A DNA stretch of 64,000 nt from Acidobacteriota bacterium. Lineage in GTDB: Bacteria; Acidobacteriota; Blastocatellia; Pyrinomonadales; Pyrinomonadaceae. The position numbers were made by a program, and so were the translations under genes. Of the stretch, positions 25,679 through 56,123 are shown piece by piece. The notes below the pieces were generated by a model. The model had not been told where the DNA came from and searched no databases. It was given only the letters and a program-made list of their open reading frames with translations. Position 1 is the stretch's first letter; the number at the start of each line of letters is the position of its first letter. The stretch is taken from contig JAFDVK010000012.1 in the NCBI GenBank assembly GCA_018269005.1, positions 558,001 through 622,000 of the forward strand, written 5' to 3'.

Positions 25679-25969
25679 TTAGCTGACGATCTCGTCAAAA
25701 TCACGTGCGCCGTGGAGGACACGAGAGATGCTTACTCGATTCGCCCAACCTCGATAGAAGATCAAATAGCTGCCTATAGGAAAACTTCGCAGGCCATGTT
25801 CAAGCTCTGAGCGCTCGCGGCCTGCACCCGGATTCTCGGCTAACATTTTGAAGATATCGACAAACTGGCCATACAATTCGACCGAGGCTTCAAAGTTATC
25901 TATCGAAATGAAAGCAAGGATATCGTCAATGTCGTCCTCCGCCTCGCAGGTAACGATGAAATCAGCCAT
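25679..25969 (-). CDS. parE: ParE-family type II toxin
   Basis: The 96-residue protein has the ParE/RelE pattern: AEDDIDDILAFISIDNFEASVELYGQFVDIFKMLAENPGAGRERSEL, followed by LRSFPIGSYLIFYRGW and a VSISRVLHGARDFDEIV tail. ParE proteins poison DNA gyrase. It overlaps its antitoxin gene by 8 bases, and the order is antitoxin then toxin. Confidence 0.9.
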   Translation of the reverse strand: MADFIVTCEAEDDIDDILAFISIDNFEASVELYGQFVDIFKMLAENPGAGRERSELEHGLRSFPIGSYLIFYRGWANRVSISRVLHGARDFDEIVS

Positions 25970-26228
25970 GTTTTGGCCTTCTTGCTAGCAAGCGTTCCTT
26001 TATGTCGGCCATTGCTTGCGCACCATCTTTGTAGCGTCCAGCTTCCAGATCAGCCGTGCCCTTCTTTATCTCAGCTCGCAGGGCGTTCAGCTTCGCTTCG
26101 CGGATCTCGTCCCGTTGCTGCAAAAGCCTCAGGCCTTCGCGAACGACCTCGCTCGCGGAACTATACATCCCGTCCTTAACCTTCTGCTCGATCAAAGTTT
26201 CAAGCTCGCGCGTAAGAGAAACATTCAT
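25962..26228 (-). CDS. parD: ParD-family antitoxin
   Basis: This is an 88-residue ribbon-helix-helix antitoxin: N-terminal MNVSLTRELETLIEQKV, then SSASEVVREGLRLLQQRDE, and a flexible C-terminal tail that would wrap around ParE. ParD represses its own promoter; a perfect candidate operator lies 10 bases upstream of the ATG. The gene overlaps parE by 8 bases. Confidence 0.92.
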   Translation of the reverse strand: MNVSLTRELETLIEQKVKDGMYSSASEVVREGLRLLQQRDEIREAKLNALRAEIKKGTADLEAGRYKDGAQAMADIKERLLARRPKHG

Positions 26229-26237
26229 AGAAAGAGG

Positions 26238-26273
26238 ATAACAAAGACTGTTATTAATAACAATCTTTGTTAT
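26238..26273. promoter_or_regulatory. Long palindrome, probable ParD operator
   Basis: This is a 36-bp palindrome with one mismatched pair: ATAACAAAGACTGTTATT and its inverse partner. It is centred at 26255/26256, just upstream of parD. Ribbon-helix-helix autorepressors bind such sites. It probably overlaps the parDE promoter. Confidence 0.7.
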
Positions 26274-26285
26274 TTCTATCGCTCT

Positions 26286-27344
26286 CTACCGTTGGCGGCC
26301 TTTTTCAAAGTCCCTTACATCCTTGAACGGGTTGTCTCTATCCTCAAAATCCGGGCGGTAGTAATGCGAAGCCGATTCGTATTCCTGCATAAAGCCTTCC
26401 TCCATTCCGAGATCGTCGAGCAGGGAAACGGCCTCGAACCATTCGCCTTCGGAAATGCGGCGAGAGAGCAGGATGTAGCGTTCATCCGTTGCCGCCTTGT
26501 TGGTCGCGTAATATTGGGCCATCAGCGAGATCGCGGTCTTAGCCGATAGTTCGTCGCGTATCCATCGAAGGTTCGCTTCGAGGTCGGCGATATCGTTCGG
26601 CAGAACGAGCAGGCGAATGAGAAGGCCGCGCTTCAAGAGAGGAGAAGATGCGGACGAGGGCGTCCGCGTTCCGAAAACAAGATTGCTGCCCATCTGGCGG
26701 TGCATTTCCTTGATCGCAAGGCGGGCAAAATGGGCATAATCGCGCACTTTTGAATACGTGAATCCGGCGGCCGAATCTGCGTATTTCAGGTCAGGGAGAT
26801 AGATATCGACAAGGCCTTCGAGGAGCGTGAGAACCTCGACGGAATCATATGCGTTCGTGTTGTAAACAACGGGAAGATCAAGGCCTTGCTCGGTCGCAAG
26901 CAGTATGGCGCGTGCCATCTGCGGAGCGAAATGCGTAGGCGAGACAAAGCCGATATTGTGGCAGCCGCGTTGCTCGAGTTCGAGCATCATCTCGGCCAGA
27001 CGCTCGACGGTGATCTCGTTCTTCCGCTGAGTTTTCCACGTCTGCGAGATCTGATAGTTCTGGCAATAAACGCAGCGAAGGTTGCAGTTGCCGAAAAAGA
27101 TATTTCCCGCCCCACGCGTGCCGCTTAGGCAGGGCTCTTCGCCGAAATGCGCCGTATAGCTCGAGACGATCGGCAAACGTCCCGAATAACATGCGGCGAT
27201 CTCATCCTTTAGACGGTCGTTGCCGCAATCTTTAGGGCAGACCGTGCAGGATCCAAGCAAGCGCTCAAGCGCGTGGACCTGGTTCTCGAGTCTGTTCTTG
27301 TTCGAGAGTTTCCGCAACCTTACGCCTGAGTCTGCGTTTTCCAT
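26286..27344 (-). CDS. Radical SAM protein related to pyruvate-formate-lyase activase
   Basis: This is a radical SAM enzyme with CxxxCxxC in GNCNLRCVYCQNYQISQ and extra Cys pairs at the N-terminus (CTVCPKDCG), as in the PflA-like group that includes YfkAB-related proteins. It also has GCHNIGFVSPTHF and VYNTNAYDSVEVL. The role is unknown; AmmeMemoRadiSam-type and glycyl-radical activases are relatives. ATG 27344 overlaps DUF2721 by 80 bases, so a later start such as TTG could be real. About residue 225, the frame includes a GTRTPSSASSP segment that matches an intergenic repeat (bases 26647-26673). Confidence 0.85.
   Translation of the reverse strand: MENADSGVRLRKLSNKNRLENQVHALERLLGSCTVCPKDCGNDRLKDEIAACYSGRLPIVSSYTAHFGEEPCLSGTRGAGNIFFGNCNLRCVYCQNYQISQTWKTQRKNEITVERLAEMMLELEQRGCHNIGFVSPTHFAPQMARAILLATEQGLDLPVVYNTNAYDSVEVLTLLEGLVDIYLPDLKYADSAAGFTYSKVRDYAHFARLAIKEMHRQMGSNLVFGTRTPSSASSPLLKRGLLIRLLVLPNDIADLEANLRWIRDELSAKTAISLMAQYYATNKAATDERYILLSRRISEGEWFEAVSLLDDLGMEEGFMQEYESASHYYRPDFEDRDNPFKDVRDFEKGRQR
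26647..26673. repeat. GCGGACG-palindrome repeat inside the radical SAM gene
   Basis: The 27-nt block GATGCGGACGAGGGCGTCCGC plus GTTCCG recurs at 56047-56073 with one change. Its core CGGACG...CGTCCG is palindromic. It lies within coding DNA and translates as FGTRTPSSAS without breaking the frame. Confidence 0.7.
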
Positions 27345-27915
27345 GAGCGTTGTAAATATACTTGTTGATGATCTCTTTCGGCGCGACGTAGTTGGCAAGC
27401 GTCCACGTAAAATCCATCTCGGCATTTACGGTCGCCGTCGCCATTCTTGTTTCCAAGAGCATCAGGATGCTGCCCCAAAACAGGAATAAAATCCCGACGA
27501 TCCCGACCGGGATCGGCACCCAGCGATATGTATTAAAGAAGGCGGCAGCGGCGATCGTTACGCTCGTCAGCACGAAGAAGCCAAGCCCGTAATAGAAAGT
27601 CACCATCGCCCGCTGAAGAAGACGCGCGCGGCTCGTTACTTTATCGAGGAGGCCAACGACGGTGTCGATGCGGAGTTCATAAAGAGCGATAGCGGATTTG
27701 TCGTCGCTCGTAATAAGGTCGCTCAAGCGTTTCTCGAGTTCGCGAACGCGATCGACCACGCGGCCGAGCCTCGTCGAGGTCGAGAGCACTAGCGAGCCGG
27801 TTGCCGAGATCAGCAACGTCGGCGTGACCATCGCCGTAAGAAACTCGATGGTCGAATTAAGAGCGTCCGGGTTTACGGAAACAAGATCTCCGCCAGCCAT
27901 AAAAGTCGAATCCAA
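27265..27915 (-). CDS. DUF2721 family membrane protein
   Basis: This 216-residue protein has a DUF2721-like layout: an N-terminal helix (FLTAMVTPTLLISATGSLVLS), a charged VDRVRELEKRLSDL region that may form a coiled coil, then two helices (FYYGLGFFVLTSVTIAAAAF and VPIPVGIVGILFLFWGSILML) and a basic tail. The family function is unknown. The C-terminus overlaps the radical SAM gene's chosen start by 80 bases, which is unusual and hints that one boundary is misplaced. Confidence 0.8.
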   Translation of the reverse strand: MDSTFMAGGDLVSVNPDALNSTIEFLTAMVTPTLLISATGSLVLSTSTRLGRVVDRVRELEKRLSDLITSDDKSAIALYELRIDTVVGLLDKVTSRARLLQRAMVTFYYGLGFFVLTSVTIAAAAFFNTYRWVPIPVGIVGILFLFWGSILMLLETRMATATVNAEMDFTWTLANYVAPKEIINKYIYNAHGKRRLRRKVAETLEQEQTREPGPRA

Positions 27916-27968
27916 AATGTTAGTCGTGTCGCATCACAAGCGCAAATCTCGCGCGATCCGATGTCAGG

Positions 27969-28517
27969 CTAGGCCGCTGAGTGCCGTGCGTTATGAGTTC
28001 GAAGACGGAGCGAGAGAGCGACCATCGTTACTCCGAACAGAACGGCATAAATACCAATGATGAATCCGACGGCGAAGGCTCCGCCAATCGGGTCTGCTGC
28101 GACCAGTACGCCGAAAAGGATCGAAAATATGCCGCCAAGGATCATCCAGAATTCGCCAACGATGAGCTTCCGCAACTGGATCGCGGTTACGATCTTGAAA
28201 ACGCCGCTGACGAATGCCCAGATCGCGATGATGAGGATCATTGCCTGTGCCATCGACGCAGGTTGTATCAGCGTGATGAGGCCGACAACGATGCCGAGCA
28301 GGCCTTCAAGAATGATCCACCACCAATTCTCGGTCCTCGCCTCTGATCTAAAGGCTGAGATGAGGGCAAAGATGCCGTCAACCAACGCGAAAGCTCCGAA
28401 GATCAGCACAAGTGACAGAAATGCAGAAGCCGGGAAAGATATCGCAGCTATGCCAAAGACAAGTGCAAAGACACCGCGGAGCAAGAATACCCACCAATTT
28501 CTCGCTAAGAACATCAT
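27969..28517 (-). CDS. HdeD family membrane protein
   Basis: Six hydrophobic helices with HdeD-type repeats: NWWVFLLRGVFALVFGIAAISFP, FGAFALVDGIFALISAFR, WWWIILEGLLGIVVGLITLIQP, and FWMILGGIFSILFGVLVAADP. In E. coli HdeD takes part in acid resistance at high cell density, but the many other homologues have no known role. Length 182 matches the family. It is transcribed alone, with 53 bases between it and DUF2721. Confidence 0.92.
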   Translation of the reverse strand: MMFLARNWWVFLLRGVFALVFGIAAISFPASAFLSLVLIFGAFALVDGIFALISAFRSEARTENWWWIILEGLLGIVVGLITLIQPASMAQAMILIIAIWAFVSGVFKIVTAIQLRKLIVGEFWMILGGIFSILFGVLVAADPIGGAFAVGFIIGIYAVLFGVTMVALSLRLRTHNARHSAA

Positions 28518-55127: not shown

Positions 55128-55346
55128 TGGCAGCCGCCTCGGCTGACGGGGTGGTTCTCTTTTTCGGGAATTTCGTCCTTCACGGCTACACCAAAGAGAA
55201 AACGAAAAGGCCGCAAAGCAAAACCCCGCAAAGGCCGCAAAGGTACGGGATTCTGAACCTCAAATTCGAAATTTGAAATTTGAAATTGAGAGCGATTAGA
55301 TTCGTGCATTCGTGGCGGCTTTCCTCCTTCGCGAACTCTGCGTCGC

Positions 55347-55398
55347 CTTTGCGTTCTTTGCGTTTAAATTCCGGTTTGGAAACGCAAAGGCCGCAAAG
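55347..55398. repeat. GCAAAG inverted repeat
   Basis: CTTTGCGTTCTTTGCGTTT (55347-55365) pairs with the inverse at 55380-55398 with two mismatches; both sides continue into CCGCAAAG-type tandem copies. Confidence 0.6.
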
Positions 55399-55700
55399 CG
55401 AAACCCCGCAAAGACCGCAAAGATCTTAGTCCCCGAAGGGGACAAAGAATATAGCCCAGGGTAAGGCCGCCTCGGCCGCCACCCTGGGAATCCGTCGCAA
55501 AACGAACCCCGGAGCTCCGTTAGGAGCGACAGGATCTTGTCGGCGGCCGAGCCGCCTGCGGGAATTCATTTGCCGTCGTCACCCACGCCGTAAACGACGT
55601 GGCTATGCGAAGCCGTTGTCGACGGCAAGCCGCCTCCAAGAGAACAGAAAACGGAGAATTGAGAATGGAAAATGCGGTTTGATACTTTTTTGCGAAATTT

Positions 55701-55943: not shown

Positions 55944-56123
55944 CTGACCGCCCGCTCACGCAGGCGGTACTGACAGGACTGACCGCCCGCTCACGCAGGC
56001 GGTACTGACAGGACTGACCGCCCGCTCACGCAGGCGGTTCTGACATGATGCGGACGGGGGCGTCCGCGTTCCGGCAGGCGGTGTTGGCAAGACCGCCCGC
56101 TCACGCAGGTGGTACTGACAAAG
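55944..56123 (+). repeat. 35-bp tandem hairpin units
   Basis: Three full units (55944-55978, 55979-56013, 56014-56048) and a further partial unit (56091-56123) of CTGACCGCCCGCTCACGCAG plus 15 bases. Each unit can fold as ACCGCCCGC-TCAC-GCAGGCGGT with one mismatch. Between the third and fourth lies the GCGGACG palindrome copy (56047-56073). Confidence 0.85.
56047..56073. repeat. GCGGACG-palindrome repeat, intergenic copy
   Basis: 26 of 27 bases match the copy at 26647-26673 within the radical SAM gene. The core CGGACG...CGTCCG is palindromic. Confidence 0.7.

Follow-up and report, generated by a model that had tools for sequence, protein, structure and literature searches.

Mobile elements usually avoid genes or destroy them. 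In the window, by which we mean the whole 64,000-nucleotide stretch of DNA analyzed here, a gene for a radical SAM enzyme contains a palindromic 27-mer in frame, raising the questions of what this repeat is, how it came to lie there and how the reading frame survives it. The best overall explanation, to which we assign a probability of about 85%, is that a REP element sits in a variable loop of the radical SAM enzyme and that its cognate RAYT transposase resides, also in frame, within host genes.

The insert in the radical SAM gene

The first-pass annotation had reported a palindromic repeat in this gene and a near-identical intergenic copy, and both are present where it placed them (Table 1), differing at a single position (26/27 identical). 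On the minus strand, the protein reads ...SNLVF-GTRTPSSASSP-LLKRGLLIR..., compared with SELVF-DDAG-LLQRGL in the closest relative, G017. At the DNA level, 33 nt stand in place of 12 nt (GATGACGCGGGC in G017), a net in-frame gain of 21 nt or seven residues, which excludes a simple 27-nt insertion. Conservation suggests that the real start of the gene lies later than the first ATG, at ~27326.

Radical SAM orthologues or homologues occur in 47 of the 60 genomes searched. Relatives had been said to have a short loop at FGTRTPSSAS, and alignment bears this out: all 30 aligned relatives have a four-residue stretch at this place (DDAG, GEDG, DENG and others), none of them, including the near-identical G017, carries the REP there, and no repeat-free homologue among them has the same residues. 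The GTRTPSSASSP segment is thus an insertion relative to close homologues. Its position in a loop is read from the alignment; a sequence search of the PDB returned no homologue of the radical SAM protein, and a single-sequence AlphaFold model of it was discarded (pLDDT ~39). Could the segment be ordinary variation in loop length that matches a repeat by coincidence? Loop sequence does vary among relatives, but the short length is constant in all 30, the segment is 26/27 identical to a genome-wide family, 100 dinucleotide shuffles yielded no match to the 27-mer, and the peptide GTRTPSSA recurs in the PurM and acetyl-CoA-synthetase-like (ACS) proteins of this genome, with GTRTPPSA in GT9. Coincidence is therefore scarcely credible.

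Table 1 Features of the window that bear on the radical SAM insert.
Feature	Position	Strand	Remarks
Radical SAM gene (PF04055) carrying the insert	26286..27425	-	379 aa counted from first ATG
Patch of clustered substitutions around the REP, in an otherwise nearly identical tract	26600..26720		~100 bp, limits approximate
33-nt segment GTRTPSSASSP replacing 12 nt of relatives (DDAG in G017)	26640..26672	-	limits approximate, to a few bases
REP element, CGGAAC-GCGGACG-CCCT-CGTCCGC-ATC on the minus strand	26647..26673	-	in frame in the radical SAM gene; encodes GTRTPSSA
Second REP copy	56047..56073	-	intergenic; within an array of another repeat

The repeat family

The 27-mer is a REP element, a small hairpin repeat of the kind that moves together with a single-strand (HuH/Y1) RAYT transposase. 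As in other REPs, which are palindromes of 20-50 nt, there is a short conserved tag, here GGAAC, on one side, and the copy at the radical SAM site is computed to fold into a hairpin with a 7-bp stem and a 4-nt loop (z ~ -3.4). The genome-wide search that had been proposed as a check finds 42 copies with at most three mismatches in this Pyrinomonadaceae-like genome (G000), versus none with a reversed control; ~27 are extragenic and ~15 genic. Many of them form inverted pairs ~50-110 bp apart, as in BIMEs or REPINs (at C3:205.9k, C9:117.2k, C24:13.9k, C25:138.7k, C25:374.1k and C31:69.6k). The family is present in 21 of 41 genomes of the genus, and public named records that contain it come mainly from Pyrinomonadaceae and other Blastocatellia. 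A few exact matches come from Verrucomicrobia, Spirochaetes and mislabelled MAGs, and of those inspected, none lies clearly within a conserved gene.

The REP core contains no stop codon in any of its six frames, which read ADEGVRVP, CGRGRPRS, RTRASAFR, RNADALVR, TERGRPRP and GTRTPSSA. Insertions into loops could therefore survive, given a length change that is a multiple of three and a harmless peptide.

The window also contains other repeats. The array that encloses the intergenic copy (55944-56123) consists of four copies of CTGACCGCCCGCTCACGCAGGCGGTACTGACAGGA, initially at 35-nt spacing, and similar CTGACCGCCCGCT.ACGCAGGCGGT stretches adjoin many REP copies elsewhere in the genome. A lysine-rich repeat (AAACG.AAAGGCCGCAAAGC...) at 55200-55422 has two copies of 43 nt, 180 nt apart.

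Arrival of the radical SAM copy

The ~2.7 kb around the radical SAM gene (25800-28500) are ~98.4% identical to G017, whereas both flanks are only ~60-80% identical; given this difference, the tract was probably exchanged recently, by recombination, between two species-level lineages. Within it, the ~50 nt of codons adjoining the REP carry ~12 substitutions relative to G017, most of them synonymous. Because the REP lies in this mosaic patch, it probably arrived or persisted via short-tract recombination rather than by fresh transposition. In the strongest form of this route, there was no transposition into the radical SAM gene, and short-tract homologous recombination either imported a REP-bearing allele from a diverged lineage or left an older native allele in place. 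The change in identity at the tract borders and the substitutions clustered beside the REP speak for such a history, although no REP-carrying donor was found among the relatives searched and the cluster may instead come from repair at insertion. On balance, we lean towards recombination, which concerns only the route and not the identity of the element.

At 25680-26275 on the minus strand, a small gene pair resembling a toxin-antitoxin module of the ParE/ParD type follows a long inverted repeat (AACAAAGA.TGTTATTAATAACAATCTTTGTT).

REPs in frame in other genes

In G000, ~15 REP copies lie in frame in 11 genes, which encode a GH92 alpha-mannosidase-like protein, PurM, a methyltransferase, the radical SAM enzyme, GT9 (in its tail), the ACS, an M20 peptidase, DapB, MetH, a MOSC protein and a GlcD-like oxidase; of these names, radical SAM and ACS were checked against Pfam and the others are our reading of the sequences. 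Empty sites occur in relatives, most of whose genomes are MAGs: for PurM in G013 and G033, for MetH in G013, for the M20 peptidase in G017 and G013, and for the MOSC protein in G022 and G013. Other relatives have different elements within the same loops.

Across the genus, coding sequence runs on the same strand on either side of 78 copies, and in 73 of these the reading frame stays open, a frequency that reflects survivorship and not necessarily insertion preference, and one to which related copies contribute non-independently. Frame calls were made on 207 distinct copies. Besides these 73, 5 have coding in a different frame of the same strand, 3 have coding on opposite strands and 1 is interrupted by a stop; the caller, based on codon usage, is 97% accurate on its own training genes and gave at least one false N-terminal case (L109, where the repeat is located before the start codon). 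Two further candidates were set aside, L023 as an ORF that is probably no real gene and L009 as affecting a C-terminal tail only. The in-frame copies fall into 23 host-gene clusters. Counting each frame once per cluster gives 14 for ADEGVRVP, 12 for GTRTPSSA, 9 for RNADALVR and 3 for all others, so that three frames out of six make up 35 of the 38 frame-by-host-gene counts. The likeliest cause of this bias is selection against arginine- and cysteine-rich readings, with a contribution from paired elements, in which two frames are fixed together.

Are these palindromes kept within genes for a positive role, for example because they form an RNA hairpin or encode a beneficial peptide? Of the 11 genic sites in G000, eight have an insert in G017 too, and the same loops are occupied repeatedly across different species, as such a role would predict. 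Against it, sequence, orientation, frame and length vary between species at the same site, as for tolerated insertions, and an Rfam search at the radical SAM copy gave no match. We regard a positive role as improbable and tolerated insertion as the better reading.

A transposase nested in host genes

G000 has 14 Y1_Tnp genes, one of which, at C24:14106-14381, is bracketed by three exact REP copies (C24:13920, 13993 and 14643). This RAYT lies in frame inside a 901-codon ORF, the rest of which consists of ACAS_N, AMP-binding and AMP-binding_C domains, and the ACAS_N profile match is itself interrupted by the RAYT insert. The same ACS-RAYT arrangement is found in G017, G022 and G036 (cut by a contig end in G036), and G009, G023, G026, G035 and G061 carry an in-frame RAYT at a second site in the ACS gene. 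In an alignment with the acetate-CoA ligase 8rpk, the ACS insertion sites fall at gaps or in loops. In G003 and G032, a RAYT interrupts PriA in frame, separating its 3'-binding domain from the helicase. The phenomenon is thus larger than the in-frame repeat first proposed, because the transposase gene itself, in related soil bacteria too, also lies in frame inside host genes.

The RAYTs in ACS and PriA form one clade (98/95 support), separate from the stand-alone RAYTs of the genus. The closest solved structure, and best PDB match, is TnpA-REP (4er8), and the HxH and YI..NP catalytic motifs are conserved in all nested RAYTs tested. Where tested, the nested RAYTs are under purifying selection, with dN 0.093 and dS 1.09 for the G000-G017 pair and dN 0.078 and dS 2.03 for the PriA pair.

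Is the transposase made as part of its host protein? We considered that the RAYTs in ACS and PriA might be translated separately, from an internal start or by re-initiation, or that their hosts are dying pseudogenes. Some copies at the second ACS site and in PriA do have an in-frame ATG in the REP-encoded stretch, but in G000 and G017 the RAYT domain has no nearby ATG, unlike the stand-alone RAYTs checked, in which one lies ~7-9 codons upstream, and the nested copies share no start with a ribosome site. With respect to decay, G000 has a separate, intact Acs, and the ACS that carries the RAYT therefore need not be essential. Host ACS genes nevertheless show dN/dS of ~0.03, the insert-bearing PriA is the only PriA in G003 and G032, and ~900-1060 codons run without stops in several genomes. 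Both alternatives are thus unlikely, and the RAYT is probably produced within the host protein, as an internal domain.

Outside the genus, RAYTs are nested in frame in a DUF1156 methylase (G050, in a nearly closed assembly of two contigs, and G054), an Eco57I-type methylase (G046) and an N6_N4 methylase (G039), and lie in frame N-terminal to an aminotransferase in G045 and G157. The methylase-nested RAYTs elsewhere in the class are less related to those in ACS and PriA. Two candidates suggested by reported ORF length (G061:C1 and G025:C23) were dropped as stand-alone ORFs of ~210 aa, and an AlphaFold model of the G017 ACS-RAYT fusion, built from seven sequences, was discarded (pLDDT ~39).

Two side observations concern the host genes. 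The ACS genes of G061 and G009 (L314 and L312) have in-frame repeat inserts in three separate loops, of which the third is close to the C-terminal domain, making this gene a repeated landing site. An Eco57I-type methylase ORF of 1811 codons (L361:3060-8492) contains a ~78-nt unit in in-frame tandem (VEQTFLSVSSPEQTQAEMPAPHSQHQ) beside its nested RAYT.

A model for in-frame persistence

We propose that the REP occupies a variable loop of the radical SAM enzyme, adding seven residues net without breaking the frame, and that this copy entered, or was kept, in a short recombination tract. Selection would remove REP insertions that break the frame or yield a harmful peptide, leaving those whose peptide the host protein can tolerate. 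The cognate RAYT would follow the same in-frame strategy inside the ACS-like gene, with flanking REPs, and its relatives would do so inside PriA. The adjacency of REPs and RAYT suggests that the nested transposase mobilizes the repeats, presumably while being translated as a fusion.

More broadly, we tend to favor the view that this REP-RAYT lineage of the Blastocatellia lives as translated in-frame inserts. The transposase would have lost its own start and be produced solely inside host enzymes (the ACS-like protein at either of two sites, PriA and, as a separate case, DNA methylases) as an internal domain, and the REPs would be accepted as loop peptides in essential proteins, an intein-like lifestyle without splicing. 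By remaining in frame and readable, the whole transposase-plus-repeat system seems to persist in both essential and metabolic genes. Such inserts constitute a natural library of tolerated protein insertions and suggest a route by which new loops or domains could enter enzymes. It can now be tested whether a transposase is able to function from within a metabolic enzyme or replication helicase.

Relation to known systems

The first-pass annotation had likened the repeat to Rickettsia palindromic elements. The comparison holds for behavior, as both are palindromic repeats that lie in frame in many unrelated genes and encode short peptides (PMC10969869), here in a loop of a gene that stays open, but fails for membership: the Rickettsia elements are ~150 bp long, whereas the unit here is ~24-27 nt (pairs roughly 75-130 nt), has its own GGAAC tag, adjoins a RAYT gene and is found in Pyrinomonadaceae/Blastocatellia. 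Intragenic in-frame REPs, including RPE-4 and RPE-6, have been described before (Di Nocera et al. 2013, PMC3733652). The GTAG/CGTC REPs of that study are likewise small palindromes, single or in inverted dimers, that lie within coding genes of several species, and GTAG REPs are RAYT-linked; they are defined by an unpaired terminal GTAG or CGTC tag, whereas the tag here is GGAAC and the host belongs to the Acidobacteriota (Blastocatellia).

RAYTs nested in frame in host genes were not found in that paper, nor was a description of them found in our literature search of open-licence papers. The nested RAYTs share with RAYT/TnpA-REP and REPIN systems (PMC3116915, PMC8266576, PMC6006769) a Y1/HuH transposase with HxH and YI..NP motifs and flanking cognate REPs, but those studies treat RAYTs as stand-alone genes, and one set unexpectedly long RAYT-like proteins aside, treating them as fusions or misannotations (PMC6006769). 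IStrons, which combine a group I intron with an IS (PMC4227781), and inteins are also mobile elements that reside in genes without destroying them. In contrast to both, no splicing is evident here, and the protein appears to retain the insert.
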